Assembly (NCBI GenBank): GCA_021604665.1
Contig: BQJK01000001.1
Coordinates: forward strand, 682,001-746,000
Reading direction: 5' to 3'
Length of the DNA stretch: 64,000 nucleotides
Origin: Rhodomicrobium sp.
GTDB lineage: Bacteria > Pseudomonadota > Alphaproteobacteria > Rhizobiales > HXMU1428-3
Shown here: positions 1 to 17,053 of the stretch, in pieces
Layout: the number at the start of each line of letters is the position of its first letter
How positions within the stretch are numbered: position 1 is the first letter of the stretch
The notes under the pieces: generated by a model
What the model saw: only the letters and a program-made list of their open reading frames with translations
Told to the model about the DNA's origin: nothing
Database searches by the model: none
Translations under genes and position numbers: made by a program

Positions 1-105
1 TTACTGATCCATTGGCAAGCCATAAAACTGTTATTTAAAAGTATCCCGTACCAGATGAAACCAAAACAGCTTTCACCTCGTATCTCAAGGAGCGAGCGTG
101 AATAA
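1..105 (+). CDS. DUF1365 family protein, C-terminal fragment (gene starts before the window)
   Basis: An open frame enters from the left edge and ends at TAA 103-105. Its 34 residues contain the pattern I-H-W-x-A-x-K-L-x-x-K followed by a basic, proline-containing tail, which resembles the C-terminal end of DUF1365 proteins. Genes of that family commonly sit directly upstream of a Cfa-family methyltransferase, usually with an FAD-dependent amine-oxidase-like gene before them, and the next gene here is exactly such a methyltransferase. The biochemical role of DUF1365 is not established; a role in modified membrane fatty acids is inferred from context. Only the last 10-15 percent of the protein is visible, so the call rests on a short motif plus synteny. 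Confidence 0.6.
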   Translation, partial: LLIHWQAIKLLFKSIPYQMKPKQLSPRISRSERE

Positions 106-272
106 ACAAAATGGACCTGGCGCCTCTAGTATATATTTACGCCGTTAGCCGGGAGCAAAGTCTGTGATTTAGAGCAATTTATAACAGACCCTTGATACGC
201 ACTCCGATAGTTTAGCAACCCAATTGAAGACCAGTCAGCCATAGATCTAAGGATCCTTAACCGAAGTACCAT

Positions 273-1439
273 ATGATCAAAAATTATTTCAAAAACCGCC
301 TATTCAGCCAGTTGGAGAAACTGCATTGGGGAACACTCACCCTCACCACACCTGATGGCATCACACGTCAATTTAAAGGTATAGACCCAAGCGGCGCAGC
401 CGTTTCAATGACCGTAAAAGACTGGAGCGTCATCCCCAATCTCTTGCTAAAAGGTGATATCGGTTTCGCAGAAGATTACCGCGATAACAAATGGGAAACA
501 GACAATCTCACTGCGCTCTTAACTCTTGCCCTAAAAAACCGCGCGCCTTTTGATAAATTTGTTCTTGGTAAAACCTTATTCCGCGCCTTTGAAAATCTGA
601 AATATTTACTTACCCGCAACAGTCTTAAAGGGAGCCGCAAAAATATTGAGGCCCATTACGATCTCGGCAATGAATTCTATGCCCAGTGGCTCGACCCCTC
701 AATGACTTATTCCTCAGCTGTCTTTGCAAATGAGGGACAAACTCTGGAAGCCGCACAAGCAAATAAATATGACCTCATCCTAAATCAACTGGACCGTAAA
801 GATGGCAGCCTCCTTGAAATAGGCTGCGGCTGGGGCGGCTTTATAAAACACGCCCAGGCAGTTGGTAATTTTGATGTTAAAGGGCTGACCCTTTCCCCAA
901 GTCAATTAAGCTATGCCGCTAAGCAAACCAAGGGCCAGGCCAGGATAGAGCTAAAAGACTACCGCCAAGAAAAAACACGATATGACAGCATCGTCTCAAT
1001 AGAAATGTTTGAAGCCGTCGGTGAAGAATATTGGCCAATTTATTTCAAACAAATCTCAAACTTATTGAACCAGGGCGGCCGCGCCGTCTTACAAACGATC
1101 ACAATCAATGAAATGGATTTTGAACGCTACCGCAAAGGGAGCGATTTCATTCGCACCTACATTTTCCCCGGCGGCATGCTGGCAAGCACCCGCCGCTTCA
1201 TAGATGAAGCAGAAAAGGCAGGGCTCATCGTCTCAACCCCCACCCATCATGGGGCCCATTACGCTAAAACTCTAAACTTGTGGCTGAAAAGTTTTGACGC
1301 GGCTGAAGCCCCCTTAAAAAAAATGGGGTTCGACGAGCCATTCATGAAGTTATGGCGCTTCTATCTGGCAGCCTGCAGCGCGGGCTTTGCAACAGGCCGC
1401 ACAGATGTAATTCAGGCAAATTTCAGCAAGCAAAGCTGA
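273..1439 (+). CDS. Cfa-family SAM-dependent fatty-acyl methyltransferase
   Basis: The 388-residue protein has the cyclopropane-fatty-acid synthase layout: a helical N-terminal domain, the AHYDLGNEFY block (residues 127-136), the SAM-binding glycine loop EIGCGWGGF (182-190) and MFEAVG (245-250). The family transfers a methyl or methylene carbon from SAM to the double bond of a phospholipid acyl chain at the inner membrane. By alignment from memory with E. coli Cfa, the bicarbonate-binding Cys139 is Ser148 here and His266 is Gln274, while the Glu (247) is kept, so the product may be a methylated rather than cyclopropanated chain. DUF1365 lies upstream and two SDR genes downstream, a grouping that in some alphaproteobacteria belongs to singlet-oxygen/membrane-stress regulons. 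No strong ribosome-binding site precedes the ATG. Confidence 0.85.
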   Translation: MIKNYFKNRLFSQLEKLHWGTLTLTTPDGITRQFKGIDPSGAAVSMTVKDWSVIPNLLLKGDIGFAEDYRDNKWETDNLTALLTLALKNRAPFDKFVLGKTLFRAFENLKYLLTRNSLKGSRKNIEAHYDLGNEFYAQWLDPSMTYSSAVFANEGQTLEAAQANKYDLILNQLDRKDGSLLEIGCGWGGFIKHAQAVGNFDVKGLTLSPSQLSYAAKQTKGQARIELKDYRQEKTRYDSIVSIEMFEAVGEEYWPIYFKQISNLLNQGGRAVLQTITINEMDFERYRKGSDFIRTYIFPGGMLASTRRFIDEAEKAGLIVSTPTHHGAHYAKTLNLWLKSFDAAEAPLKKMGFDEPFMKLWRFYLAACSAGFATGRTDVIQANFSKQS

Positions 1440-1552
1440 CCAGGCAGAATTAAACCATAAGATGATGGCAATATAGACCGGCCAGAATATCGGAACACAC
1501 CCCCTCGGAAAGACATTAACAACGGTAAGAGAAGGCCAGACGGCAAGAATTA

Positions 1553-2332
1553 ATGGATAATTACGACAATAAATATATCTGGATCATCGGTGCCAGCTCA
1601 GGCATCGGCAAAGCCCTGGCTAAAAACCTGGCCAAACAAGGCGCAAATCTAGCCCTCTCCGCCAGAAGTAAATCAGATCTTGAGAACTTAAAAAAAGAAC
1701 TGGATGAAGACACCCCAACAAGAGAGCATCTCATCCATCCGCTGGATGTTAGTGACCTAGCCAGCCTGAACCAGGCCGCAAAAACAATAAAATCCACTTG
1801 GCCAAGGGTGGATAGCCTCATCCATCTTGCCGCCATTTATAACCCATCAAGTTTTGAAGAGATGGATATTGAGGCAGCCCACAAACTTATCAACATTAAT
1901 TTCGGCGGCACTTTAAACGTCATTCACATCGCCCTCCCTCTTTTAAAAGATGGCGCCATGTTAAGGGAAGAAAAAAGCCAATTGGTAATATGCGGCAGCG
2001 TTGCAGGCTATTGCGGCCTACCAAATGGACAGCCCTATAGCGCTTCCAAAGCTGCTATAATAAATCTGGTTGAATCACTGCGGGCCGAAGAATCAGATTT
2101 GGACATAAGGCTCATTAGCCCCGGCTTTGTCCGCACACCGCTAACAGATAAAAACCCCTTCCCCATGCCATTTATAATTGAACCAGAAGAAGCAGCAGAG
2201 CGCATAGCAACAGGCCTATTATCAAGCAGATATGAAATCCAATTTCCCCGCCGTCTCACCTGGCTCATGAAAATTTTAAAACGACTGCCAGCCCCATTGT
2301 TTTTTGCAATCACCAAACGAATGGTAAACTAA
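1553..2332 (+). CDS. SDR family NAD(P)-dependent oxidoreductase
   Basis: This 259-residue protein is a classical short-chain dehydrogenase/reductase. The nucleotide-binding motif GASSGIG is at residues 13-19, and an active-site Ser (CGSVAG) plus YSASK supply the catalytic Ser-Tyr-Lys set. A hydrophobic C-terminal stretch with basic flanks suggests membrane association, as in SDRs acting on lipid substrates. It lies 113 bases after the Cfa-like gene, and its stop codon is only two bases from the next start, so it is probably co-transcribed with both. A role in processing an oxidised or methylated fatty-acyl chain is inferred from the neighbourhood; the substrate cannot be read from the sequence. 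Confidence 0.85.
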   Translation: MDNYDNKYIWIIGASSGIGKALAKNLAKQGANLALSARSKSDLENLKKELDEDTPTREHLIHPLDVSDLASLNQAAKTIKSTWPRVDSLIHLAAIYNPSSFEEMDIEAAHKLININFGGTLNVIHIALPLLKDGAMLREEKSQLVICGSVAGYCGLPNGQPYSASKAAIINLVESLRAEESDLDIRLISPGFVRTPLTDKNPFPMPFIIEPEEAAERIATGLLSSRYEIQFPRRLTWLMKILKRLPAPLFFAITKRMVN

Positions 2333-2334
2333 CC

Positions 2335-3078
2335 ATGCTGTCATCTTATAAAGGCCCCATAAACGCCGCAATAATTGGAGCAACCGGCGGCATCGGCCGT
2401 GCCTTAATCAATGAGCTGACAGCCCTCTCAAACATAAACCACCTCTATACCCTCAGCCGCAAAACTTATGAACATGACACCAAAATGGAAGAAGCCATAC
2501 TCCATAAGTTAGAATTCGATTTGTTAGATCAAGAAAGCATCCAGCAAGCGGCAAATGGCATAACTCACCCTCTAAATCTGATCATCATAGCAACAGGCCA
2601 TCTGCATGATGCCTCACAAATGCCAGAGAAAAACTGGGATGCCCTTGATGCAGAAGCCATGCGCAAATCTTTCGCCCTAAACACGATAGGCCCTGCCCTG
2701 TTACTGAGATACCTTCTCCCAAAACTCGGCACAAATGGTAAAAATATCTGCGCTGTGCTCTCAGCCAGAATAGGCTCAATATCAGATAACAGAGCTGGCG
2801 GTTGGTACAGCTACCGCGCCTCAAAAGCTGCCCTGAACATGATCGTAAAAACCGCAGGTATAGAGCTTAAGCGAAAAAATAAAGCAGCCACTCTCATGGG
2901 TCTCCACCCCGGAACGGTTGATACCAACCTCTCATCACCCTTTCAAAATATGGTCCCAAAATCACAGCTCTTCACCGCCGAGCAATCAGCCCAAAAGTTG
3001 CTAAAGGTCATCAATGAAAAATCAAGGGAAGACACAGGCAAATGCTTCGCCCATGACGGCACAGAAATAACGCCCTAA
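2335..3078 (+). CDS. SDR family oxidoreductase (C-factor-like)
   Basis: The 247-residue protein begins with a Rossmann motif IGATGGIG (about residues 14-21) and carries YSYRASKAALN with the catalytic Tyr and Lys. The overall pattern resembles the C-factor/CsgA-like branch of short-chain dehydrogenases, which are cytoplasmic NAD(P)-dependent enzymes of varied substrate. The ATG is two bases after the TAA of the previous SDR, so translation is probably coupled. It shares little with its SDR neighbour apart from the fold, so the pair is not a recent duplication. Last gene of the DUF1365-Cfa-SDR-SDR group; a weak hairpin (GACTT/AAGTC, 3083-3096) follows it. Confidence 0.85.
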   Translation: MLSSYKGPINAAIIGATGGIGRALINELTALSNINHLYTLSRKTYEHDTKMEEAILHKLEFDLLDQESIQQAANGITHPLNLIIIATGHLHDASQMPEKNWDALDAEAMRKSFALNTIGPALLLRYLLPKLGTNGKNICAVLSARIGSISDNRAGGWYSYRASKAALNMIVKTAGIELKRKNKAATLMGLHPGTVDTNLSSPFQNMVPKSQLFTAEQSAQKLLKVINEKSREDTGKCFAHDGTEITP

Positions 3079-3392
3079 AGGTGACTTTTACAAGTCGTTG
3101 TTTCTTATAAAATCACACGGCAGGAAGACATATAATTCAAGTTTACAATGCCCTGTTGCCTAAATTTAAAGCACCCAATCCTGACCAGGCCAGTTCTGAG
3201 CCATCAAGAGCTTATATTTTCTACCCAATCAAAAATATAGGCGCCATTATCATAAATAAGTCATGACACTGATGACATATAACACAGGCATTTAACTGTA
3301 ATATTTGTAAACAGCAGTGCATTATGTTATCAATTCGCACTTGCCCTTATCTAAGTTCGCCGTGTTTCAGCGATGATTAAACGCAAGGATTG
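3079..3392. other. Intergenic region upstream of the symporter/carbamoyltransferase operon
   Basis: About 310 bases separate the SDR gene from the next operon. Apart from the weak 5-bp hairpin just after the SDR stop codon (3083-3096), followed by a modest T-rich stretch, I see no conserved operator, RNA or convincing -35/-10 pair. The region is AT-rich and most likely holds the promoter of the operon starting at 3393. Confidence 0.4.
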
Positions 3393-3875
3393 ATGACCAC
3401 AAATCCCCGAAATACTCTGGCCAGCCTTTTAATAGCATTCGCTCTGTCTCTGGTCCTCCTTGCGTCAGCAAACACGGCATACGCAGCTGAAGACCTGCGC
3501 ATATCCAGCAATGGCAGCACCGCCGGTTATCTCACACTTGATTGGTCTGAAAACAGCGCCCCAGCCCCCTATACCCTCCAGATGAATAAAGGCAACGGCT
3601 GGCGAACAATCTATCAAGGCAAAGATACGGCCACCACTCTAACCGGCCTGCAAAATGGCGACTATCAGTTCCGCATTAACAGCAGTGACCCGGCAACAAT
3701 AGAAGATGACCATTGGTCAGATCCAATTAGCGTAACCATCAATCACCATAGCCTGGTAAAAGCTCTTAGCTTTTTTGCGGGCGGATTGATTATATTTATC
3801 ATCTTACTCTGGCTGCTATTCTTTGCAGGCCTCTCCCTCAATAAGAGGCCACCTCTAAAAGGGAGCGGTCACTAA
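3393..3875 (+). CDS. Secreted/membrane-anchored protein with a fibronectin type III-like domain
   Basis: The 160-residue product has an N-terminal signal peptide ending in a typical AxA site (TAYAAED), a short beta-rich domain (about residues 35-115) with the W-x-E and Y-x-F/R-I spacing of fibronectin type III folds, and one transmembrane helix (about 122-145) followed by a short basic tail. The ATG at 3393 follows AAGGA at 3385-3389 at a tight spacing; a TTG directly before it is a possible alternative. Its TAA overlaps the symporter ATG by one base (TAATG), so the two are coupled. This topology, with an extracytoplasmic FN3-like domain tied to one helix, suggests an accessory or substrate-delivery partner of the symporter. 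That partnership is inferred. Confidence 0.7.
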   Translation: MTTNPRNTLASLLIAFALSLVLLASANTAYAAEDLRISSNGSTAGYLTLDWSENSAPAPYTLQMNKGNGWRTIYQGKDTATTLTGLQNGDYQFRINSSDPATIEDDHWSDPISVTINHHSLVKALSFFAGGLIIFIILLWLLFFAGLSLNKRPPLKGSGH

Positions 3876-5314
3876 TGATTGAAGCTGCAATACTCCCACC
3901 AACATTAGCATGGGGCATTATCCTTGCCTTTTCAGCCCTGTGGGTTGCGTTAGGCTGGTGGCTGGGCCGCAAAAATAACAGCATGGATGATTACATGCTC
4001 GCCGGCCGTAATGTTGGCCTTGGCCTGGCGGTAGCAACAGCCATGGCCACCTGGGTAACCAGCAACACCACGATGACCGCGCCCCAGCTCACCTATCAAC
4101 TCGGCATTTGGGGAATGGTTGGTTATTCCCTTGGCGCAATCGGTCTCTTACTCTTCGCACCGCTCGCTGCTGAAATCAGAACTCTCATGCCAACGGGCCA
4201 CACCAGCGGTGACTTCATCCGCTTGCGGTGGGGTAAACTCTCCTGGCGTATATTTTTGCTTATTTCATTTTTTTATGGTCTTGGCTGGCTCATCAGCCTC
4301 GGCATGGCTGGTGGCATTCTAATTGAAGCGCTCTCAGGCATACCTTACGCCTACGGCATGACAGTCATTGTCGTTATATGTACGGCCTATACAGTCTTTG
4401 GTGGGCTGCGCGCTGTTATTGGTACAGACTTTATCCAAACCGTACTAATCCTACTTGGTGTATTGCTTCTGGCTATTCTCGTTGTCAATAACATCGGCTT
4501 TGATGAGATACATCAAACCCTAAGCCAAGAGCGTCCAGAGCTTCTTAACCTGTTGCTCCCGGCCTCAATTATGTTTTTGTTTAACAATCTCTTTTTCGGT
4601 GTGGGTGAAATTTTTCACTCGAATGTATGGTGGTCGCGGGCCTTTGCCTTTGCACCAGGTGTCGGCAAACGGGCTTATATCCTGGCCGGTATATTTTGGT
4701 TACCAATTCCCATTGTGGCAGGTTTCATAGCCCTTGCCGCCCCGGCCCTCAACATCAACGTACCCTCCGCAGATATGGTCGCCCCGTTGGTTGCTAGCCA
4801 GATGTTTGGACTTTTTGGCGCTATTCTTGTTTTCATCATCGTCTTTGCCGCCCTCGCCAGCAGCCTCGATAGCCTGTTGGCCGCCATGAGCGATCTTATC
4901 GTCAAAGATATCTACAAGGGTCATATCCATAAGGCCGCAACCTCCAGCCAAATGCGCAGCGCAGCAGTTTGGGTCATCTTGGGTCTTGGTGTCATCACAT
5001 GGTGCCTCAGCTTGCCGCGCCTCTCAACCTTGGGCGAGCTTCTCTATCTAACAGGGGCATTTGTCGCCAGCACAATCTGGCCGATTGCAATCGGCATAAA
5101 ACTCAAAAAAGGCACTGGGCCACAGGCAGCACTTGCGATGGCAACAGGGACCGCCATTGGATTATACTCATACTTTGCCATCGGCTTTTATGTGGCAGCA
5201 CTGGTATCAGCAGGCGTTTCACTGATCGTCATGCTGCCAGCCTTCTTTATGAAAGATAGTTTTGACCCATCTGAACTTAATGAAAACACCCCTGAAAAAG
5301 GAGAGCTAAGATGA
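3875..5314 (+). CDS. Sodium:solute symporter family (SSS) transporter
   Basis: The 479-residue protein has about 13 hydrophobic segments and SSS hallmarks: an N-terminal helix followed by DDYMLAGRNVG, a run ATAMATWVTSNTTM in the first core helix, and YTVFGGLRAVIGTDFIQ, the usual GG-x-x-A-V-x-x-TD-x-x-Q signature. Family members couple Na+ entry to uptake of sugars, amino acids, urea or carboxylates across the inner membrane; the sequence does not tell which. It is embedded in a coupled operon: its ATG overlaps the previous stop (TAATG) and its TGA overlaps the ATG of a 39-residue membrane peptide (ATGA). The carbamoyltransferase and asparagine-synthetase-like genes downstream suggest a nitrogen-rich amino acid or amide as substrate (inference). 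Confidence 0.85.
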   Translation: MIEAAILPPTLAWGIILAFSALWVALGWWLGRKNNSMDDYMLAGRNVGLGLAVATAMATWVTSNTTMTAPQLTYQLGIWGMVGYSLGAIGLLLFAPLAAEIRTLMPTGHTSGDFIRLRWGKLSWRIFLLISFFYGLGWLISLGMAGGILIEALSGIPYAYGMTVIVVICTAYTVFGGLRAVIGTDFIQTVLILLGVLLLAILVVNNIGFDEIHQTLSQERPELLNLLLPASIMFLFNNLFFGVGEIFHSNVWWSRAFAFAPGVGKRAYILAGIFWLPIPIVAGFIALAAPALNINVPSADMVAPLVASQMFGLFGAILVFIIVFAALASSLDSLLAAMSDLIVKDIYKGHIHKAATSSQMRSAAVWVILGLGVITWCLSLPRLSTLGELLYLTGAFVASTIWPIAIGIKLKKGTGPQAALAMATGTAIGLYSYFAIGFYVAALVSAGVSLIVMLPAFFMKDSFDPSELNENTPEKGELR

Positions 5315-5430
5315 TCTCCGCCGCCGGGCTCACGGCCCTAGTTATTCCTGCGATGGTGCTTACAGCCATCGCATTTGCAGCATTGATATATCTGATAATA
5401 AAAGATCAGCAGAACGGCAATTTATGGTAG
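5311..5430 (+). CDS. 39-residue single-pass membrane microprotein
   Basis: A short frame starts at ATG 5311, overlapping the symporter stop as ATGA, and ends at TAG 5428-5430, seven bases inside the carbamoyltransferase gene whose ATG is at 5424. The 39 residues consist of a short N-terminus, a hydrophobic stretch of about 22 residues (from LTALVIP to LIYLII) and the polar tail KDQQNGNLW. Overlap at both ends implies coupled translation and argues that the frame is real. Small single-helix subunits of this kind accompany several transporters as stabilising or regulatory subunits, which is the likeliest role here. I recognise no named family. Confidence 0.6.
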   Translation: MISAAGLTALVIPAMVLTAIAFAALIYLIIKDQQNGNLW

Positions 5431-6521
5431 ACCCAGAAACAATCCAAAAAGCCCAAAGAGCACATGAAGAGGGTTCAGTTGAATTTGAACCTGAAAAACC
5501 AGATATCTATGGAGATGCTCATCCTAAAGAATTGCTACGTCTAATTCCTGAGCATCATGATGTTCTAAAAAGCCTTGCGAACAAACATATTGTCTCTGCA
5601 TTCCAGTTTGACAAAGAAATGTTAGAGCAGCTGTTTCGGCTGGCCGCTAAATATGAATCCAACCCGAACAGATATTCAAATCCCTTGAAGGGTAAAATTC
5701 TGATCAGCGCCTTTTACGAGCCAAGCACCAGAACAAGGCTGAGCTTTGAAAGCGCCTGGCACCGGCTCGGCGGTGATATCATGTCAATCACCGACCGCGC
5801 CTCTACAGGCATTGCCAAAGGTGAAAGCCTGCGTGACATTGGTGAGATGTTCAATAACTATGGCGATTGCGTCGTCCTGAGAGACAATAGCGAAGACGCA
5901 GTAATTGAGATGATGCAAACCCTACGCATCCCCATCATCAATGCTGGTAATGGCACAGATGAACACCCGACACAGGCACTGGCCGATCTATACACCATTC
6001 TAAAATGGCGCCCAGCTATGATGGAGGAAAATTCAGAGCCGATTAAAATCGGTATCATAGGTAACCCGGCTCGAATGCGCACAGTTCGTAGCCTGTTGAC
6101 ACTGCTTTCCAATTACAGCGATGCAATCTCTGAAATCATAATTATCCATGATGATAAAGATGAACAGCTATTCTATGAAAATCAGGAACAAGAAATAAAA
6201 AATCTCGGCCTGAAAATCAGAACAGAGACCAACCTCGACAAGGTACTGCCAGAGTTGGATGTGGTCTATATAAACGCCATTGCCTGGGTAAAAGATGACT
6301 ATGAGGTAATGGGTGAGAATTTAAAACTCTCAATCAACAGCCCATTGAAACCCTCCTCTATCATTCTACACCCGTTGGCCCGGGGGGATGAACTTTGCTC
6401 AAGCCTCGATAACACGCCCCATAACTGGTATTTCTCGCAGGCGCGCGGCGCCGTATTTCTTCGTATGGCGCTTCTCACCTGCCTGACTCAAAGAACCGAG
6501 CGCGTCATAGATGTGCTCTAA
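5424..6521 (+). CDS. Aspartate-carbamoyltransferase-like enzyme with an atypical acceptor site
   Basis: The 365-residue protein aligns with ATCase from about residue 55, after a 55-residue extension. The carbamoyl-phosphate site is intact: S101-T-R-T-R105, K132 in the mobile loop, R153, H181-P-T-Q184 and R219 match the catalytic positions of E. coli PyrB. The aspartate-binding part is not: the R-x-Q motif (Arg229/Gln231 of E. coli) is replaced around residues 282-287 by YINAIA, and the HPLPR loop reads HPLAR (316-320). The enzyme therefore probably carbamoylates an amine other than aspartate. It overlaps the microprotein stop and lies 69 bases before an asparagine-synthetase-like gene. No pyrC or pyrI is adjacent, so it is unlikely to be the housekeeping pyrimidine enzyme. 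Substrate unknown. Confidence 0.75.
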   Translation: MVDPETIQKAQRAHEEGSVEFEPEKPDIYGDAHPKELLRLIPEHHDVLKSLANKHIVSAFQFDKEMLEQLFRLAAKYESNPNRYSNPLKGKILISAFYEPSTRTRLSFESAWHRLGGDIMSITDRASTGIAKGESLRDIGEMFNNYGDCVVLRDNSEDAVIEMMQTLRIPIINAGNGTDEHPTQALADLYTILKWRPAMMEENSEPIKIGIIGNPARMRTVRSLLTLLSNYSDAISEIIIIHDDKDEQLFYENQEQEIKNLGLKIRTETNLDKVLPELDVVYINAIAWVKDDYEVMGENLKLSINSPLKPSSIILHPLARGDELCSSLDNTPHNWYFSQARGAVFLRMALLTCLTQRTERVIDVL

Positions 6522-6590
6522 AAGGATGTGCTGTAAAAAGCGCTGATTAAAACTACCTGTTTAAACCCGTTTAAGGATTTTATTTCACAT

Positions 6591-8606
6591 ATGTGCGGTA
6601 TCGCCGGAATTTTCCACGCAGATCAAACTCGCCCCACCAACAAACAATTGCTGGCCAATATGGCAGCAATTCAATATCACCGCGGGCCAGATGGCTTCGG
6701 TGTTGAAACAATGGACGATAAAGGCGTTGGCTTTTCTCATGCCCGTCTTTCAATCATTGATCTTGTTGGCGACAGAGCGCGGCAACCCTTCATCAGCCAG
6801 GATAACCGCCTCCTCCTCGCCCATAACGGCGAGTTCTATGATTATCAGCGCCTGCGTACAGAAATGACCCTGCAAGGTGACCGCTTTGTTACCAAAAGCG
6901 ATAGCGAAACCATTCTCCATATGATGCCGCGTCTCGGGCTGGATGCAACACTCACTCATCTGAGAGGCGAGTTTGCCTTCGCCCTTTACGATAAAGCCAC
7001 CGACAGCCTCCACCTGGTCCGCGATCGTTTTGGTGTGAAGCCGTTATATTATTATCAAGATGGCGACAAAGTCGTTTTCGGCTCGGAGATAAAAGTGCTG
7101 ATGGCCCACCCGGAAGTGCCGCGTGAATTTGATGATCAAGGCCTTCTCCATCAATTGATGCAGGTCATGGTACCGGGCTCAACAGCCTTTAAAGGCATTG
7201 TGCAGGTTAAACCCGGTCATGTTGTTACCTTTAAGCGCAACGGCGGCACCTTCGAAACAACCGACCGCACCTATTGGGATTTTACCTTCCCGGATGCAGA
7301 TGCTCATAAAGCCCCTGTGACAGAAGAACAAAGCATTGAAACAGTTCGCCAAAAACTAACAGAAGCCGTTCACTTCCGCTTACAGGCCGATGTGCCGGTG
7401 GGCTGCTATCTCTCTGGCGGTGTGGATAGCTGTTCTATTCTTGGTCTTTCTTCCGCCATGCGGCAAGACCCTGTAAAAGCCTTCACCATCGGCTTCACAG
7501 ATAAAGCCTATGACGAAACCCCCATCGCCCAGGAAATGGCTGCAACCACCGGCGCTGATCAAGACATCTTGCGTCTGGATGGCAGTCATCTATATGGCCA
7601 TTTTGAAAAAACCCTCTGGCACACAGAACGCACAATTTATAACACCCTGGGCGTTGCAAAATATCTCATGAGCAAGCATGTGCATGAGGTTGGCTATAAA
7701 GTTGTGGTCACCGGTGAAGGGTCTGATGAACTATTCGCCGGCTACCCTTCCTTCCGTAAAGATCTCTTCACCCATGGGCTTGATGAGATGGATGAAGAAG
7801 AACGGAACCATTGGAAATCAAGCCTTGGAGAAAACAACCAACTGTTCACAGGCGCCATGCTCGCCGAAACAGATGTTGAAAGCGACGCCATCACAGCCCG
7901 TGTTGGCTTCACGCCCAGCTGCCTACAGCCTTGGTTGGCCTGTGAAGCAACAGCCCGCCTTGTAATGGAAAAAGATAGAACCAACCACCTCGAAGGCTAC
8001 AGCCCCGGCGCCGCCATAGCAGACACGCTCGACGCAGAAATGCTCAAAGGTCGCCACCCCCTGGATAAAGCCCAATATGTCTGGTCCAAAACCATGCTGG
8101 AAGGCCAAATCCTAACCTGGGGCGGAGACCGCGTGGACATGGCCAATAGCATGGAAGCTCGCCCAGCCTTCCTCGACCATCACCTGGCAGAAGCGGCAAC
8201 AAATATACCGCCTCATCACCGCATCAAAAATCAGAGCGAAAAATATGTTTTGAAAGAAGCGATGAAAGGCTTATTGCCAAAGACCCTCTATGAGCGCGAA
8301 AAATTTGCCTTCATGGCCCCACCAGCCACCATCAACAAAGACAAGTGGGACAGTATGATGCTGCTTGCCGATGATAAATTAAGCGAAGACAGCATAAAAG
8401 ATGCTGGCCTGCTCGATTATCAAAATGTGCAAAATCTATTAGCTGAAGTACAATCAGATGATACAAGCCGCGCCCGCAATGTGCAGCTAGACGCCATCAT
8501 TAATCATATGCTCGGCGTCCAGATCATCCATGAAAAATTCATCAAGTCAGATCTGCCATCGGTCGCCGCCAAGCAGGCACAAAGCCTCGGCTGGGTCATT
8601 CACTAA
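6591..8606 (+). CDS. asnB: Asparagine synthase (glutamine-hydrolysing) family protein
   Basis: The 671-residue protein starts with Met-Cys2-Gly-Ile-Ala-Gly, whose Cys2 is the glutaminase nucleophile after Met removal. The class II amidotransferase domain (about 1-200) keeps RGPDG, R52-L-S, HNGE (78-81) and the SD-SE acid. The synthetase domain carries the pyrophosphate loop SGGVDS (275-280) and GEGSDELFAGYP (375-385). It therefore has all residues needed to move ammonia from glutamine to an acyl-adenylate. At 671 residues it is longer than E. coli AsnB (554), like many AsnB homologues in biosynthetic clusters. Its position behind a symporter and an unusual carbamoyltransferase suggests that it amidates a specialised substrate, although ordinary asparagine synthesis is possible. 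Confidence 0.85.
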   Translation: MCGIAGIFHADQTRPTNKQLLANMAAIQYHRGPDGFGVETMDDKGVGFSHARLSIIDLVGDRARQPFISQDNRLLLAHNGEFYDYQRLRTEMTLQGDRFVTKSDSETILHMMPRLGLDATLTHLRGEFAFALYDKATDSLHLVRDRFGVKPLYYYQDGDKVVFGSEIKVLMAHPEVPREFDDQGLLHQLMQVMVPGSTAFKGIVQVKPGHVVTFKRNGGTFETTDRTYWDFTFPDADAHKAPVTEEQSIETVRQKLTEAVHFRLQADVPVGCYLSGGVDSCSILGLSSAMRQDPVKAFTIGFTDKAYDETPIAQEMAATTGADQDILRLDGSHLYGHFEKTLWHTERTIYNTLGVAKYLMSKHVHEVGYKVVVTGEGSDELFAGYPSFRKDLFTHGLDEMDEEERNHWKSSLGENNQLFTGAMLAETDVESDAITARVGFTPSCLQPWLACEATARLVMEKDRTNHLEGYSPGAAIADTLDAEMLKGRHPLDKAQYVWSKTMLEGQILTWGGDRVDMANSMEARPAFLDHHLAEAATNIPPHHRIKNQSEKYVLKEAMKGLLPKTLYEREKFAFMAPPATINKDKWDSMMLLADDKLSEDSIKDAGLLDYQNVQNLLAEVQSDDTSRARNVQLDAIINHMLGVQIIHEKFIKSDLPSVAAKQAQSLGWVIH

Positions 8607-8789
8607 ACAGCCCTTTGCTCATGGGATGTGATAAGCACCCCAACGATGGTTATTACCAGCAGATCATGGTTGATATAAAAGTGAGATCAATCAAAGGCTT
8701 TTAAAAACCTCTGCCACGCGCTATCAACTAACAGCGAATAAAAGGCTTATAATAACTGACGCCTGATAAAATATGAGGGAAGTGACATT

Positions 8790-9437
8790 ATGAAACTGAA
8801 AAAGGTTCTCAAAACCCTTGCTCTAATCGGCCTGATGAGTTCAGCCGGCATGACAGCACCAGCACAAGCCGCCGATGATGCCTGCCTTGCAGAACTAAAA
8901 ACCCTCATGAAAACATTTGATAGCCAAATCCCGAATTCCCGTGTCAGAACCACATTGGAAAGAGATGGAAAAATTCTTCAGGAGCAAAGCGGCGCTTATT
9001 TAGACGCTAAAAACTTCATCAATGAAAGCTTGCGCCATAACTACTGGACCATGGTTCGAGGTAATGATGAATACCGCTCTCGGGATGGCAAAGTCTGGCA
9101 AAAATTTAAGACAAGAACTGAGGGCTGGTCAGAGAAAGCCAGCGCTTACGGCGCAAAGATAATTACCGAGATTAGCAACGGCAAATGCGGTATGACAGAA
9201 GAGCTGGATGGCAAAAGCTATAAAGTTTATACCTACACCCATATCGCAACAGACCCTGCCCCAATCCATACAGAAAACAAAATCTATATTGAACCAAAAT
9301 CAGGCTGGCGCTACCGGTGGATTTCAACACTAACAGATAGCAAACCCCACACGATACTAACCAACGTCTTCACTAAAGATAACAACATTACCCTACCGGA
9401 CCCTGAGAAAAGGCCTGAACAAAAACCGGCAAACTAA
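8790..9437 (+). CDS. Secreted protein of unknown function
   Basis: The 215-residue product begins with a clear Sec signal peptide (basic MKLKK, hydrophobic core, cleavage near AQAAD). The mature part holds two cysteines (about residues 31 and 131) that could form a disulfide and repeated short strands rich in Tyr, Trp and Thr; the pattern recalls LolA/LppX-like half-barrels, but I cannot assign a family. A good ribosome-binding site (GAGGGAAG, about 8 bases upstream) supports the ATG at 8790. The C-terminus is proline-rich and charged. It stands alone between the Asn-synthetase-like gene and the cytochrome genes on the same strand, separated by 183 and 405 bases. Confidence 0.6.
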   Translation: MKLKKVLKTLALIGLMSSAGMTAPAQAADDACLAELKTLMKTFDSQIPNSRVRTTLERDGKILQEQSGAYLDAKNFINESLRHNYWTMVRGNDEYRSRDGKVWQKFKTRTEGWSEKASAYGAKIITEISNGKCGMTEELDGKSYKVYTYTHIATDPAPIHTENKIYIEPKSGWRYRWISTLTDSKPHTILTNVFTKDNNITLPDPEKRPEQKPAN

Positions 9438-9660
9438 CAAAGCCTAATACAAAATTTATTAGGACCGGCAACAGGCCTTTACATCACCGCCAGAGAACGC
9501 GAGTGAGCACAAGCTAACAAGTAACAAACGGCGTTTTATCAGTTTTAACATCAGATCATCTCCTTCTATTTATAAGTGATACGACCGGATGGATGAAATG
9601 CCGTCGCCGCCCGCTCCCTCAAATTTGCCCTTCCCACATACTGGGCATCACGCCCTATTA

Positions 9661-9709
9661 TTGATCTCGATCAAACCACCTATCAACAAATCAACACATA
9701 CTCTTTCTA
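9661..9709 (+). promoter_or_regulatory. FNR/FixK/Anr-type binding site with class II promoter spacing
   Basis: TTGATCTCGATCAA at 9661-9674 matches the FNR/FixK consensus TTGAT-N4-ATCAA at every defined position. A -10-like CATACT lies at 9697-9702, which predicts a start near 9709; that puts the centre of the box (9667.5) at -41.5, the classical distance for activation by FNR/CRP-family proteins. The two cytochrome c genes downstream are therefore probably induced under low oxygen. The box and spacing are seen in the sequence; the regulator is inferred. Confidence 0.75.
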
Positions 9710-9722
9710 CTCTTAAAGGGGA

Positions 9723-9806
9723 GGCACCTTTGAGTTGAGGTTTACTCTTGTCTGTTTGAGATGTCCGATTATGACGACTTCATCACATCAAGACCTCAAG
9801 GGTGCC
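9723..9806 (+). promoter_or_regulatory. Structured 5' leader with two mutually exclusive stems
   Basis: Bases 9723-9734 (GGCACCTTTGAG) can pair with 9795-9806 (CTCAAGGGTGCC) over 12 bp including one G-U. Immediately downstream, 9735-9741 (TTGAGGT) can pair perfectly with 9793-9799 (ACCTCAA). The two pairings use the same bases 9795-9799 and cannot coexist. The element ends 36 bases before the cytochrome ATG and would lie inside the transcript started near 9709. It may control translation or stability; no known riboswitch was recognised. Confidence 0.4.
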
Positions 9807-9842
9807 GCTATTTAGGGGAAATAGATAAGGGGTTCATTCTAC

Positions 9843-10280
9843 ATGATAAAACAGATTTCAGCAGCTCTCACACTGCTGCTCACCGGTGCTATTTGTTCAT
9901 CACCATCTATCGCAAATGAAGTAGAGAAAAGCCAACAGGGGCAAACCCTCTTTGTTTCATCATGCGCAACCTGCCATGGGGTGAAGGGCAAGGGTGATGG
10001 GCCAGTTGCCAATAATCTAATTATCAAACCCACAGATCTCACAACCTTAACAAACAAAAATTCCGGCGAATTCCCGCGCCAAAGAGTGAGCAAATATATA
10101 GATGGCCGTTCAGTAATCTCAGCCCATGGCAGCCGAGAAATGCCCGTTTGGGGAAATATATTCAAACTACAGGCAATCGAGAATGGCATATTACAAAATG
10201 ATAAAGACGGCCTTGAAAATAGTATCAAACAGCAAATAGACCAACTGGTCACCTATATAGAACAGCTGCAAACTCCTTAA
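9843..10280 (+). CDS. Periplasmic monohaem cytochrome c
   Basis: The 145-residue protein has a Sec signal peptide (cleavage near SIANE) and a single haem-attachment motif CATCH, followed by G-K-G-D-G-P as is usual for class I cytochromes c of the cbb3/soluble type. A Met in REMPVW is the likely sixth haem ligand. It would act as a periplasmic electron carrier or as a subunit of a larger redox enzyme. A second small cytochrome follows after 28 bases and both sit behind an FNR-type box, so an oxygen-limited respiratory role is likely. No oxidase or reductase gene is nearby, so the electron partners are not visible in the window. Confidence 0.85.
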   Translation: MIKQISAALTLLLTGAICSSPSIANEVEKSQQGQTLFVSSCATCHGVKGKGDGPVANNLIIKPTDLTTLTNKNSGEFPRQRVSKYIDGRSVISAHGSREMPVWGNIFKLQAIENGILQNDKDGLENSIKQQIDQLVTYIEQLQTP

Positions 10281-10308
10281 GGTTCACACTCAAACTAAGG
10301 CATATTTT

Positions 10309-10659
10309 ATGAAGTATCTTCAGACCTTTATATCAGCTCTATTAATCATCGCGCCGACAATGGCTAATGCGGAAACAGCTGAGCTAACAGAGCAACAGGC
10401 CAACGGCAAACAGCTAGCCCAAACCCATTGCGCAAGGTGCCATAACATATCATTGAGCGGTGAAAGCCCATTGCCCGCCGCCCCTGTATTTAGAAGTTTT
10501 AATGAAAAATGGCCTCTGAATTATCTGGAAGAGGCACTGGCCGAGGGTATAGTCACCGGCCATACAGACATGCCAGAATTTCAGTTTGAACCAGAGCAGC
10601 TCAGTCAGTTTTTAGCTTATATTGAAGCCTTAAAAACATCCCAAACACCAAAAAACTAA
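10309..10659 (+). CDS. Small periplasmic cytochrome c
   Basis: The 116-residue product carries a signal peptide (cleavage near ANAET), the haem motif CARCH preceded by His, and a Met in TDMPEF that fits the axial-ligand loop of class I cytochromes c, with a C-terminal helix (QLSQFLAYIEAL). It begins 28 bases after the preceding cytochrome gene and is most likely in the same FNR-controlled operon. The pair may hand electrons to each other or form a dihaem complex. It is convergent with the HD-GYP gene, whose stop lies only 30 bases downstream. Confidence 0.85.
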   Translation: MKYLQTFISALLIIAPTMANAETAELTEQQANGKQLAQTHCARCHNISLSGESPLPAAPVFRSFNEKWPLNYLEEALAEGIVTGHTDMPEFQFEPEQLSQFLAYIEALKTSQTPKN

Positions 10660-10689
10660 GCTTGTCACTGAAATGCAGTGGGTAAAGTT

Positions 10690-12060
10690 CTAAGCAGCAA
10701 TCTTCTCGCCAATGCGATCAAGAGCCACTTTAAGCGCTTCAAAACAAACCGGGTCAATCGCTTCATCAACCATGTCCCACATGATAGAGAGCGCCTTGGA
10801 AATAGGCATAGCCTTTCGGTAAGGGCGATCTGCTGTCAACGCATCAAAGATGTCAGCAACGGTGACAATCCTGGTATCCATATCAATCTCAGCCCCCTTT
10901 AACCCATAGGGATACCCCTTGCCGTCAAGCCGCTCATGATGGCCGCCAGCAATGCCCGCTATATCTGAAAATGCCGTGATATTTTTAAGGATGTTGAGCG
11001 AATAGACAGGGTGCATCTTAATCTGAGCAAACTCCTCATCATCAAGCTTACCAGGCTTATCAAGCACAGAATTACTAACACCAAGCTTGCCAATATCATG
11101 CAACAAAGCCGCTCGTTTCAACCAGCGGCGCTTCGTTACGCTATAACCAAGTTGCTCAGCTATAAGATCAGTAAAAACCGTCACTCGTTCACTATGGCCG
11201 CTGGTGAACGGGCTTTTGCTATCAACCACTTTTGCAAAAGCTTCTGCAATTTCATCTAAATAATCTTCATCCACCCGCCGCGCAATTTGCGCCGGCTCAA
11301 TCAGATAGATTTTATCATGAAGGTCAGGGGAAGCCAGCATTTGCCAAAAATCAGATGAGGCAGAAACCGCCTCAAAAGCTTCAACCATTGTGGGGTCAAA
11401 CCAACTGCCAGCCCGCTTTTTAGCTTCACTAAGCGCCGCTTCAGGCCCGCTTGCCGTATGGAAAACATCAATCACCTGCGATAGTAATGCAATCCGCGAA
11501 TAATTTGGGATATCTTCACCTGCAAGCCGGTCCGGCAAACCCTTACCATCCCACTGTTCGTCAAGGCTGCGAATACCAAGCGCAACATCTTCAGAGAAAC
11601 GCAGTTTCCTCGCAATGTCTGCACCGCGGTAACAGCGTGTTTCAATCAGCTCTTTTGCAATCTCCCCGCCCTCAACCATAACGGTCACAAGCGCGCGAAA
11701 ACGCTCCGCAAGTCCAGACTGCAACCCAGTATGTGACAACACAAAACGTAAGGCCGCCGGCAGGCTGCCATCCCAGGTTTTGAAATCATGCTTAAAAGTT
11801 AGATCATCGGTGAGGTAAAGCTCACAAATCCGCGCCGCGTTACTGCTACAACCGAGATCTTTCAGCAGCAACATATAATAAAGGTCTGAAAGCGCCTGAT
11901 CAGTTAAGCCCAGCTCCCGCCCAATATGATGCCCAATCCAGCAACAACGGATACAATGACCAATCGGTTGCCCTTCAGTCAGGTCCAGCGCACAGCTCAT
12001 CGCACTCAACAGCTCAGCCAAACGCAACTCGCCTGTAACCTTCAGCGGTTCATCATACAT
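10690..12060 (-). CDS. HD-GYP domain protein with a degenerate N-terminal copy
   Basis: The C-terminal half of this roughly 456-residue protein (from about residue 265 in the longest reading) is a complete HD-GYP domain: HDIGKLG, then HHERLDGKGYP, the residues that bind the metal pair and hydrolyse cyclic di-GMP. The N-terminal half looks like an older copy in which HD has become KD (KDLG) and GYP has become GLP (WDGKGLP); it is probably regulatory rather than catalytic. No membrane segment is visible, so the protein is cytoplasmic. ATG 12060 is preferred over an upstream TTG at 12072; neither has a strong ribosome-binding site. It lies downstream of the cell-wall hydrolase pair and could share their transcript. 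Regulation of c-di-GMP is inferred from the motif. Confidence 0.85.
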   Translation of the reverse strand: MYDEPLKVTGELRLAELLSAMSCALDLTEGQPIGHCIRCCWIGHHIGRELGLTDQALSDLYYMLLLKDLGCSSNAARICELYLTDDLTFKHDFKTWDGSLPAALRFVLSHTGLQSGLAERFRALVTVMVEGGEIAKELIETRCYRGADIARKLRFSEDVALGIRSLDEQWDGKGLPDRLAGEDIPNYSRIALLSQVIDVFHTASGPEAALSEAKKRAGSWFDPTMVEAFEAVSASSDFWQMLASPDLHDKIYLIEPAQIARRVDEDYLDEIAEAFAKVVDSKSPFTSGHSERVTVFTDLIAEQLGYSVTKRRWLKRAALLHDIGKLGVSNSVLDKPGKLDDEEFAQIKMHPVYSLNILKNITAFSDIAGIAGGHHERLDGKGYPYGLKGAEIDMDTRIVTVADIFDALTADRPYRKAMPISKALSIMWDMVDEAIDPVCFEALKVALDRIGEKIAA

Positions 12061-12206
12061 CTTAGTACCCAACTCACATAAATCTTGTTAGATATCAGAG
12101 AGTAGAGTAAATCACTTAAAGAAGAGTATGTGAAACCAGTCAGTTTCTAAGCAACTGAATTTACTTTAGTATATGGACCAGAGCATGAGGTCTTAACTTC
12201 AGATGT

Positions 12207-13313
12207 CTACCAGGCAACTTTAGCTTTAGCTGCGACAATCCGGTTATAGGCAGCATTAATAGTCGCCGGGGAAATTTGCCCCGTTTTCACAGCGTCCATA
12301 ATAATAGCAATCGTCTTGCCAGGCAGGTTAGGGTCAGGCCGCCGAGAATTAGAGATCATCAGCATATCCACACCCGCATTAATCGCCAGAATAAGTGTCT
12401 TCTTATATCCAAAATTCTTGGCAATAGCACCCATTTGCAGATCATCGGAAACAACAAGGCCTTGATAATTCAGCCGCCCACGTAGAACACCTGTTATCGC
12501 GGCCTTTGAGATAGAGACCGGCACCCCATCACTAGCAAGACCTTTATGAATAAGATGCCCAGGCATAACAGCCGGTGCATCACCGCTTTCAATCAACATC
12601 TTAAAGGGCAGTAATTCTTGTTTCTGCCAACTACCAGAAATATCCACAAAACCATCATGGCTATCACTGCGGCTCGAGCCATGGCCAGGAAAATGCTTAA
12701 GAACCGGCAAAACCTTGGTTTCCATGTGAGCCTGCACGAAGGCGCGGGCATATTTTGTTACTTTTTCAGGATCACGGCCATAACTCCGGCGCCACTTGCC
12801 AATTACCGGGTTTTTCGGATTAATAAGCAAGTCAACAACTGGGGCCAAATTCATATTAAAGCCGGCGCTTCGGCTAATTTTAGCAAGCTGTAAGAACCCA
12901 GCTTTTGCAGCATCAGGGCTCATTCGTTTAGCCACAGACCCGGCAGATGAAACAGACTTGTAACCAAGCTTTCGCCCAAGCCGCTGAACAGAACCACCTT
13001 CCATATCAACAGCAAGAAGAATACCTCGCCCACCAGCAGAGCGTTTGAATAGTGAGGTCATCCCTTTAACAGAGGCTTGGCTCTTAAAGTTATAACCAAG
13101 CATAACCACCCCACCAACTTGCCCCCGCTTTATTTGTGAAGCCAGCCGTTTTGCGCCAGCAGACCGAGAGGATGTCCCTTGAAAACCCATCATCAGCATT
13201 TGGCCAATTTTAGTTTCCAATTTTTCTTCAGCAAAACCTGGCTGAGAAGAAACAGTGGCAAAAGCCAAAACAAGCGCAGCAGTCATCATCGGCCGCAATT
13301 TAGAGCTAATCAT
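12207..13313 (-). CDS. Secreted glycoside hydrolase family 3 (NagZ-like beta-N-acetylhexosaminidase)
   Basis: The 368-residue protein is a single GH3 barrel. The KHFPGHG motif (206-212), SHDG (218-221, loop with the His/Asp acid-base pair of NagZ) and VVSDDLQMGA with the nucleophile near Asp290 are all present. Unlike cytoplasmic NagZ of enterobacteria it has a signal peptide (residues 1-28, cleavage near GFAEE), so it should remove N-acetylglucosamine from muropeptides in the periplasm. It starts 17 bases after the MltB-type transglycosylase on the same strand, which makes peptidoglycan turnover its obvious pathway. The ATG at 13313 is preceded by AAGGGA at a slightly long spacing. Confidence 0.85.
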   Translation of the reverse strand: MISSKLRPMMTAALVLAFATVSSQPGFAEEKLETKIGQMLMMGFQGTSSRSAGAKRLASQIKRGQVGGVVMLGYNFKSQASVKGMTSLFKRSAGGRGILLAVDMEGGSVQRLGRKLGYKSVSSAGSVAKRMSPDAAKAGFLQLAKISRSAGFNMNLAPVVDLLINPKNPVIGKWRRSYGRDPEKVTKYARAFVQAHMETKVLPVLKHFPGHGSSRSDSHDGFVDISGSWQKQELLPFKMLIESGDAPAVMPGHLIHKGLASDGVPVSISKAAITGVLRGRLNYQGLVVSDDLQMGAIAKNFGYKKTLILAINAGVDMLMISNSRRPDPNLPGKTIAIIMDAVKTGQISPATINAAYNRIVAAKAKVAW

Positions 13314-13329
13314 GTTACAGGAAATCCCT

Positions 13330-14148
13330 TTATTTATATTTGGATAGCTGGAGCGCTAATTTTGAGATGGTTTTTTGATAAACCGTAGCTCTGTTCCATT
13401 TTTTAATAACTTCATAATTCTGGCTTCCCTCTTGCCAGCCTTGCCCGGCTACCCAGCCATTGCCTTTAAACCAAGCCGCCGTTGAAGCCAGCGCATCAGG
13501 CACAGAGCGATAAAGGTCACGTTTATTATCGCCATCAAATGAAACCGCATAGTCAACAAACCGTGTTGCTAAAAACTGTGTCTGGCCAATTTCACCAGCC
13601 CAGGCGCCGCGCATTTGTTGCGGAGTAAGGTCACCATTTTCAACTATTTTAAGGGCAGCCACCAGCTCCGCTGTGAAAAATTCAGTGCGGCGGCAATCAT
13701 ATGCCAAAGTTGCGAGCGAACGAAAGATTGAGCGTTTACCCATAAAATGACCAAAGCTCGTCTCTAGCCCCCAAATGGTTGTCAACATTGCCCGCGGAAC
13801 ACCATATTTCTTCTCAATACGATTGAATAGACTACGATGTTTTTTCATTTTACGGCGCCCAATGGCCACCATACCTTTAGTGCGACGGGCATAGAATCTC
13901 TCAAAACTCTGCTTGAAAGACTTTTGCCCCCGATCAAGGCGAATAACTCTCGTGTCATAGCGAACACCATTTAAAGAGGCATCCAGCGTACGCTTAGAGA
14001 TCCCCTGATCCCGCATCTCACTTTTAAAAGCCTTTTTCCAGGCCCCAAAACCGCCCGCTGTATCGCCGCAACTAGCAGCCTGGGCCACACCCGTGAGCAT
14101 GAAAAACACAGTCACAAAAGCTGTAATATATTTCATCAAAGCCGGCAT
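13330..14148 (-). CDS. Lytic murein transglycosylase (MltB/SLT_2 family)
   Basis: The 272-residue protein has a signal peptide (cleavage near AQAAS, no lipobox) and the MltB-type catalytic domain: the Glu of WGLETSFG (Glu129), the GEIGQTQFL motif (185-193) and W-F-K-G-N-G-W (226-232). It cleaves the MurNAc-GlcNAc bond with 1,6-anhydro ring formation. The downstream GH3 hexosaminidase would process the released fragments, so the two form a small peptidoglycan-recycling operon. A second ATG at 14136 (MKYITAF) has TAAGGA about 11 bases upstream and gives a tidier signal peptide; it may be the true start. Confidence 0.88.
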   Translation of the reverse strand: MPALMKYITAFVTVFFMLTGVAQAASCGDTAGGFGAWKKAFKSEMRDQGISKRTLDASLNGVRYDTRVIRLDRGQKSFKQSFERFYARRTKGMVAIGRRKMKKHRSLFNRIEKKYGVPRAMLTTIWGLETSFGHFMGKRSIFRSLATLAYDCRRTEFFTAELVAALKIVENGDLTPQQMRGAWAGEIGQTQFLATRFVDYAVSFDGDNKRDLYRSVPDALASTAAWFKGNGWVAGQGWQEGSQNYEVIKKWNRATVYQKTISKLALQLSKYK

Positions 14149-14569
14149 CCTTATTCAGTCTCCAATGGGTTTGAGGGCGCAACCAAATTTTATCTTATTT
14201 GGGCCTGTTCTTAGCGGTCGATCCTATTGTATTAACCAGTTTGCTGCAACAGATCACAACGCTTAACAGCGCTAAAACAACAAGCAACTCATCGAAATAG
14301 AAAACCGACTAATCAAATCTTATTTTGCCATAACCTCTATGAAAAACATGACGAAAAAACGCTCACTTAAAATTGAATCACAAAACCCACAAAATTAACT
14401 AGAATAAGAATATATTGTTAGATATACGCCCAAAACAAACTTAAAATCAGAAATTGTTTGTTAGATATCAAAGCCTAGAAAAGTCACGTAATGTGGACCA
14501 ATTAATTTGACGGCCGCATTATTCAAATTACACAGCTATGAACTGATAAAGACAGATACTGAAAAACAC
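14149..14569. other. Divergent intergenic region with repeated TTGTTAGATAT motifs
   Basis: This AT-rich region between the divergent transglycosylase and copper genes carries TTGTTAGATAT at 14415-14425 and again at 14458-14468, 43 bases (about four helical turns) apart. A third copy, TTGTTAGATATC, occurs at 12085-12096, directly upstream of the HD-GYP gene. They could be operator half-sites. No CueR- or CopY-type palindrome was recognised. Confidence 0.35.
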
Positions 14570-15073
14570 ATGCTGAAATGCCGCCTGAAAACATCTCTGG
14601 TTACCCTATTGAGCCTGGTGCTAATGATACCATCGATGTTTTGCGTCTTCATTCCGGGCGGTTCAGCTCATGCAATGGCAATAAGTGCCACCTCCGGAAT
14701 AGAGACCACAACTAAAAATCAAATAGCGAACCATCAAATGATGAGCAATCATCATAATCATCAGGCAATGATGAAAAAGATGGCCAAATCAGCATCAGTA
14801 TCCAACAAGCTATCAACACCCCAGATGCTGGAATGTCTTTTCGATTGTTTAGATAAGTATGAGCAACCATCTTACCTGGCTGATAGCAACTCAGTGTTCA
14901 AGGCTCTCACCCCGCCTCAGAGTGATGAACTGCAAATCACCCTCCCAATTCATTTGCTTATATCTCTTTCGCCAAATGACCCCACAATATTGACAACTGG
15001 CCCACCGCCAGATCAATTTTCTCATTTTGAAAAAACAACTCCCCTCACAAAAACACACCGCCTGAGACTCTGA
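14570..15073 (+). CDS. His/Met-rich secreted protein of the copper-efflux locus
   Basis: From the ATG at 14570 the product is about 167 residues: a signal peptide or single N-terminal helix (CRLKTSLVTLLSLVLMIP), then a His/Met cluster (NHQMMSNHHNHQAMMKKM) and a C-x-x-x-C segment (CLFDC). Such clusters bind Cu+ or Ag+ in the periplasm. It lies directly upstream of cusB and cusA in the same direction and most likely acts as a metal chaperone or sensor-like accessory. A longer reading from TTG 14507 adds 21 residues without a hydrophobic start and is less likely. I do not recognise a named family. Confidence 0.6.
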   Translation: MLKCRLKTSLVTLLSLVLMIPSMFCVFIPGGSAHAMAISATSGIETTTKNQIANHQMMSNHHNHQAMMKKMAKSASVSNKLSTPQMLECLFDCLDKYEQPSYLADSNSVFKALTPPQSDELQITLPIHLLISLSPNDPTILTTGPPPDQFSHFEKTTPLTKTHRLRL

Positions 15074-15223
15074 GCAAGGCTGCGTTCATTTGTTTGCTGA
15101 TGCATGACCAATCAGCCAGATGCGAGCCCTCATTTATCACTCAGGCGTAGTTGTTGATCTATTCTAAAAACAGATAGCAATGTCGTCTTAAACACCAGCT
15201 TAAATATCTTCGCTGGTTGCTTA

Positions 15224-17020: not shown

Positions 17021-17053
17021 ATAACCAGCGCTTGAAAAGAAAAGCTAACCATC

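Follow-up and report, generated by a model that had tools for sequence, protein, structure and literature searches.

Candidate genes for the synthesis and uptake of carbamoyl-glutamine amide in a Rhodomicrobium genome

What might be made by five closely packed genes that encode an FN3-like membrane protein, an SSS symporter, a single-helix microprotein, a transcarbamylase resembling aspartate transcarbamylase (ATCase), and an AsnB-type glutamine-dependent amidotransferase? The locus occupies positions 3393-8606 of a 64,000 nt stretch of Rhodomicrobium sp. DNA (contig BQJK01000001.1, positions 682,001-746,000, forward strand), which we refer to as the window. From sequence comparisons we consider it likely that the five-gene set makes and takes up carbamoyl-glutamine amide (CGA), a salt-protecting solute, and these would be candidate genes for an osmolyte that was described in 1991.

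In the proposed pathway the transcarbamylase (hereafter CT) would transfer the carbamoyl group of carbamoyl phosphate onto the alpha-amino group of L-glutamine, and the AsnB-type enzyme would activate the alpha-carboxylate with ATP and convert it to the amide, a second glutamine supplying the ammonia; with both charges masked, the product would be a neutral, nitrogen-rich solute. Leaked or foreign CGA would be returned together with sodium by the SSS symporter, to which the FN3-like protein and the microprotein would belong as accessory subunits. An M20 N-carbamoyl-amino-acid hydrolase present at many related loci, plus an isochorismatase-type amidase at four, would dismantle CGA. What the sequences show directly is the gene content, its conservation, which active-site residues are kept or lost, and the presence of both enzymes in a genome that matches the known CGA producer in contig number and total length; we infer glutamine as acceptor, the order of the steps, amidation at C1, transport of CGA, the accessory roles, and the osmotic role in Rhodomicrobium.

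A transcarbamylase with an altered acceptor site

Two PF02729 genes are present in the genome containing the window (G000; 2.91 Mb, 98.2% complete, in 6 contigs). The one outside the locus (G000:C4:8612-9502) is PyrB, scoring 318.2 bits against a cut-off of 236.95 for the ATCase model TIGR00670, and the frame that follows it resembles a dihydroorotase when read by eye. CT scores 201.9 bits, under the same cut-off, and is not PyrB.

An active-site alignment was attempted for 85 loci and contains 78 CT sequences, the other seven being absent from the open reading frame (ORF) set, together with eight references; eight loci read as ATCases in the class draw described below were sought, of which seven entered, and the Rhodomicrobium PyrB was added, this last being the only one scored against TIGR00670. 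The equivalents of the carbamoyl-phosphate site (SxRT, K84, R105, H134 and Q137) are invariant in 78/78 CT sequences, as is that of Arg167. In all 78, R229 is replaced by A, S or T and Q231 by A, S, V or T, both R and Q being kept in 8/8 references. HPLP has likewise become HPLA in 78/78, and RxQxER, a motif stated to be present in all known ATCases (PMC4581275), is kept in 0/78. R229 and Q231 anchor the beta-carboxyl of aspartate, and R167 and K84 help to position its alpha-carboxyl (PMC4581275). With R229 and Q231 lost and R167 kept, CT should therefore accept an alpha-amino acid that lacks the side chain of aspartate, and we propose that it is a glutamine N-alpha-carbamoyltransferase.

These results bear on an earlier note on this locus, which described an altered carbamoyltransferase and suggested uptake or salvage of an amine, its carbamoylation and an amidation step. 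The alteration is evident in the universal loss of the Arg229 and Gln231 equivalents, and the note's concern that the gene might be the only ATCase of the genome is answered by the separate PyrB. Carbamoylation and amidation stand as the likely chemistry; the amine acceptor and the salvage are less likely. Conservation of the residue that orients the alpha-carboxylate makes an alpha-amino acid (glutamine) a more probable acceptor than an amine, and the pathway looks like osmolyte synthesis and recapture rather than salvage.

The AlphaFold2 model of CT (pLDDT 83) has the ATCase fold, with 1ml4 as the best solved match (TM-score 0.87 to the target). In a tree, 23 CT sequences, including that of the CGA producer Ectothiorhodospira marismortui (whose genome is considered below), are split from the eight references by a 100/100 branch; the E. 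marismortui CT shares 56-79% identity with the other CT sequences of the tree, and 49% with the CT of a distant genome (G244). These identities leave room for drift, and the loss of R229 and Q231 predicts only the absence of a side-chain carboxylate bound in the ATCase manner, such that CT might carbamoylate a different neutral alpha-amino acid, asparagine for example, with AsnB amidating it and the product differing between Rhodomicrobium and Ectothiorhodospira. We consider this unlikely, however: N284, I286 and A319 do not vary among the 78 CT sequences, positions 285 and 287 remain small, and the sole such solute named for a holder of CT is a glutamine derivative.

A second alternative is that CT substitutes for a missing ornithine carbamoyltransferase, as G000 has argG (C1:399330-400514, 481 bits) and no argF over cut-off was found in this 98.2% complete genome. 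But CT scores 89.5 bits against TIGR00658, where the cut-off is 280.85, and its sequence is without SMG, the DxxxSMG motif being that given for ornithine carbamoyltransferases (PMC4581275). Among 20 genomes that hold CT (G000 included), argF is over cut-off in 15 and a third, weaker match is present in three more, and only G000 and G989 show two transcarbamylase matches. Because 15 of the 20 holders have argF and CT does not have the motif, it is extremely unlikely that CT fills the argF gap, and glutamine carbamoylation remains our preferred assignment.

The gene set in other genomes and in the probable genome of a CGA producer

The AsnB-type enzyme of the window scores 427.1 bits against TIGR01536 (cut-off 267.1) and 312.1 bits against TIGR03104, the N-acetylglutaminylglutamine amide (NAGGN) amidotransferase model, which is under the cut-off of 570.1. 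Its motifs are well conserved, with MCGI (the N-terminal Cys of the glutaminase) in 81/81 AsnB ORFs, and SGGxDS and GEGSDE in 80/81 each. We propose that it amidates C1 of N-carbamoyl-glutamine.

A scan of the collection yielded 389 pattern matches and 244 CT relatives, the best 80 of which are compared here as the named loci. The AsnB-like gene lies directly after CT in 80/80 and the SSS symporter upstream of CT in 78/80, the symporter not being found in the loci L096 (Shewanella) or L102 (Prochlorococcus). FN3-like relatives lie upstream of the symporter in 71/80 (68 by ORF cluster, and L023, L025 and L090 by tblastn), and the distant genome G244 holds all five parts. Named holders include Idiomarina, Kangiella, Alteromonas, Nitrosomonas halophila, Synechococcus and Prochlorococcus, which are marine or saline organisms. 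The Prochlorococcus genome with L102, of about 1.4 Mb, keeps CT, AsnB and a 33% relative of the M20 hydrolase. The CT of N. halophila (L081) is very near that of Lacimicrobium alkaliphilum (L078), with end branches of 0.021 and 0.1, as after recent transfer.

CT is an accessory gene. A draw from the order found it in 3/297 genomes, all of the genus to which G000 belongs (of which 8 genomes were searched), and in a draw from the class 13/289 genomes matched at 1e-30, with CT present only in G000 and G244 (8e-85, 46% identity); the remaining 11 matches, at 30-36% identity, were read as ordinary ATCases. In the Gammaproteobacteria 22/368 drawn genomes (~6%) hold CT at 1e-60, and the share among halophiles is probably higher. 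Relatives in plasmid records were found only at <60% identity (33-35% in the 15 listed matches), and CT was found in 0/4 genomes of the phototroph family of G633.

The presence of the symporter gene within the operon, and the existence of catabolic transcarbamylases (PMC4581275), raise the alternative that the symporter imports a ureido compound from which CT, acting in reverse, would produce carbamoyl phosphate. An amidotransferase that depends on glutamine, consumes ATP and has its motifs intact fits synthesis, however, and four loci (L096, L102, L135 and L136) keep CT and AsnB where the symporter was not found; we regard a catabolic role as highly unlikely and continue with synthesis of CGA.

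An N-carbamoyl product is suggested by the genes neighboring CT and AsnB. A gene for an M20 hydrolase is present, in either orientation, in the fetched DNA of 43/80 named loci, those of Synechococcus and Prochlorococcus included, and also at the loci of G244, G713, G925 and G827. The copy at L135, the locus of G713, scores 367 bits against the hydantoinase/carbamoylase model TIGR01879 (cut-off 204), its second-best NCBIfam model is the N-carbamyl-L-glutamate amidohydrolase ErtE (385 bits, under the cut-off of 520), and among solved proteins it is nearest to an N-carbamoyl-L-amino-acid hydrolase; the models rank in the same way for the G244 copy. An isochorismatase-type hydrolase is encoded at L023, L135, L136 and L139, and at L135 it adjoins CT; its nearest models are biuret and ureidoacrylate amidohydrolase, both weak matches whose 61 and 45 bits fall far short of cut-off. 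L135 also has an MscS channel gene (10197-11105), separated from AsnB by 9 bases. Neither PfkB nor MscS is claimed as a member of the system, as each lies near CT in two loci only and one of the MscS matches is at 30% identity.

Does an organism known to produce CGA have these genes? CGA is an osmolyte of E. marismortui (PMC1224877), from which it is also named elsewhere (PMC3857566). A survey of phototroph osmolytes counts it among several possible solutes of purple sulfur bacteria, giving no genes where it is named, and suggests it among the possible solutes of Ectothiorhodosinus mongolicus, in which the survey found no betaine or ectoine synthesis genes (PMC7824335). Our literature search, mostly of open-access papers, found none that assigns genes to CGA. 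NCBI now files E. marismortui under E. mobilis. The compound of 1991 (Galinski and Oren) reportedly came from strain DSM 4180 itself.

Reaction-centre genes occur in 6/368 of the drawn Gammaproteobacteria, and two of these six genomes, G713 and G925, hold CT; both have RuBisCO genes. The assembly statistics of G925 (35 contigs, 2,624,954 bases) equal those of E. marismortui DSM 4180 (PMC8877833). Its genes are ordered M20, isochorismatase-type hydrolase, CT, AsnB, and its CT, 62% identical to that of the window, has the NAIA and HPLA signature. The genome of a CGA producer thus appears to carry CT and AsnB, which is a strong match and not proof. G713 (1,995,095 bases, 55-57% GC in the fetched pieces) has the same order followed by MscS, and resembles, not exactly, E. 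mongolicus (1,990,961 bases, 55.6% GC; PMC8877833).

Several observations weigh against the reading that the locus serves CGA synthesis and uptake. The identification of G925 with DSM 4180 draws on contig count and base total only, and its GC content is 67.4% in the two long pieces L136 and L138 and 63.1% over those contig starts that were readable, compared with 68.2% published for the whole genome (PMC8877833). With CT in 22/368 Gammaproteobacteria, one producer might carry it by chance, the more so among halophiles. CGA is described as a minor solute in E. marismortui, and the same account reports no Raman signal of it (PMC3857566). The symporter was not found in the fetched DNA of either phototroph (G713 and G925). 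An M20 gene was not found in the fetched DNA of 37/80 named loci (many of them Idiomarinaceae, some short) or in the window; in G000 there are only weak M20 matches (52 bits), and none of the M20 subfamily was found. Moreover, the top model for the L135 and G244 copies is NF006771, allantoate amidohydrolase, whose cut-off the L135 copy passes, and the isochorismatase-type gene is present in only 4/87 loci. Finally, the CT tree has flagged long branches, the compared loci are the best 80 of the 244, and in a draw of 40 genomes from the phylum CT was found only in G000.

Some of the same observations fit a different role, in which CGA, with 4 N per 6 C, is mainly a nitrogen store or exchange currency whose nitrogen the hydrolases would release when it is short. 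The hydrolase genes that accompany those for synthesis in 43/80 loci, the Synechococcus and Prochlorococcus holders, and the minor abundance in E. marismortui are in keeping with this. Published accounts, however, class CGA as an osmotic solute (PMC1224877, PMC3857566), and a gene for an MscS channel follows AsnB in L135; we think a primarily nitrogen-storing role improbable and favor osmotic protection.

We also lean, if only slightly, towards a broader view, in which CGA, so far an obscure solute of purple sulfur bacteria, would be widespread as an osmolyte in the sea. A dedicated pair of glutamine N-carbamoyltransferase and amidotransferase would make it in alphaproteobacteria, gammaproteobacteria, a nitrifier and picocyanobacteria, and cells would exchange it through a new kind of three-part SSS symporter that includes the microprotein and an FN3 subunit. 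Given candidate genes and a residue signature, producers can be sought from sequence, and with Synechococcus, Prochlorococcus, Alteromonas and Idiomarina among the holders, the dissolved organic nitrogen of the sea could include an overlooked share of this neutral, nitrogen-rich solute.

Gene layout and transport proteins

The earlier note took the genes to be one operon tied together by four overlapping starts and stops, and called for a search for the same set in other genomes. The overlaps are present but the junctions number three: TAATG at 3873-3877, ATGA at 5311-5314, and ATGGTAG at 5424-5430. CT and the AsnB-like gene are spaced by 69 bases, all five genes are co-directional, and their reading frames are confirmed at the coordinates in the table. 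The unit itself holds up, the same arrangement recurring in distant lineages, and the search found the genes together, AsnB following CT in each named locus. Because of this recurrence, and because the differences in the peptide gene show a protein-coding codon pattern, the five-gene arrangement is more than chance.

Features of the Rhodomicrobium locus (positions in the window; TM, transmembrane)
Feature	Position	Strand	Description
FN3-like membrane protein	3393..3875	+	160 aa; N-terminal helix (signal or TM), FN3-like domain, C-terminal TM helix
SSS symporter	3875..5314	+	479 aa; PF00474
Microprotein	5311..5430	+	39 aa, single TM, C-terminal Trp
CT (ATCase-like transcarbamylase)	5424..6521	+	365 aa; OTCace_N + OTCace
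CT codons 285-287 (Ala-Ile-Ala)	6276..6284	+	align with Arg229-x-Gln231 of the ATCase RxQxER motif
AsnB-type glutamine-dependent amidotransferase	6591..8606	+	671 aa; GATase_7 + Asn_synthase

The symporter scores 85.6 bits against PF00474 (gathering threshold 22.8 bits), and no NCBIfam transporter model is over cut-off; it probably imports CGA, the predicted product of the pathway. The FN3-like protein and the peptide have no Pfam or NCBIfam family match. An AlphaFold2 model of the former (pLDDT 84.3) has an FN3 domain as its best Foldseek match, which is weak (E 1.5e-4, TM-score 0.62 to the target). The protein is probably an accessory subunit of the symporter.

A TM peptide with a C-terminal Trp lies between the symporter and CT in 82/82 symporter-bearing loci, which comprise the window, L019, L021, L022 and 78 named loci; the peptides are identical in L021 and L024, and in L022 and L023. 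There are 75 distinct peptides of 38-50 residues, each with a single TM segment, and the eighth residue from the end is D (78) or E (4). Nucleotide differences fall at codon positions 1, 2 and 3 in 32, 14 and 53% of cases (191 pairs), a concentration at third positions like that of a protein-coding gene. The C-terminal Trp and the acidic residue seven before it are conserved from Alphaproteobacteria to Synechococcus. The microprotein is probably a small subunit of the symporter, and this conserved protein is a candidate new symporter subunit.

Just upstream of the locus (273-3078) are a cyclopropane-fatty-acid-synthase-like methyltransferase gene and then two SDR genes; downstream are two small c-type cytochromes in tandem (9843-10280 and 10309-10659), and at 15224-20188 a CusB/HlyD-like gene with a heavy-metal-binding domain is followed by a frame of 1044 aa that is probably its RND partner. 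An Rfam scan of positions 1-20000 of the window gave no match. Promoter-like sites number 5 where 7.7 are expected and terminator-like sites 8 where 6.5 are expected, and we draw no claim from these.

Comparison with known systems

The closest parallel is CGA synthesis in E. marismortui, where the route from glutamine needs the two types of enzyme found in this operon and both are encoded in the matching genome. The window organism additionally has the symporter, the FN3-like protein and the microprotein, and the M20 subfamily was not found there. Small accessory subunits of SSS symporters are known, for example YhdT with PanF and YjcH with ActP, and the microprotein resembles them as a small membrane protein whose gene adjoins that of an SSS symporter; it differs in having only 38-50 residues, one helix and a terminal Trp, and in the lack of a family match for the window copy.

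NAGGN is synthesized by AsnO/Ngg, and its amide is made by an AsnB-type enzyme. Like CGA, NAGGN is a neutral, glutamine-derived osmolyte in which both charged groups are masked (PMC1224877), but it is formed by acetylation and dipeptide formation, whereas we propose N-capping by a transcarbamylase.

CT shares with PyrB the fold and the entire carbamoyl-phosphate site, and departs from it in RxQxER and HPLP. Altered second-substrate sites are likewise described for the ureidoglycine, diaminopropionate and diaminobutyrate transcarbamylases, and the first of these is also near ATCase and annotated as ATCase (PMC4581275). By their descriptions, these specialized enzymes are set apart from CT by motif (H(T/S)LP in the ureidoglycine enzyme) and by pathway (PMC4581275), and CT would bring to the transcarbamylase family a predicted new activity that is recognizable by a clear residue signature.

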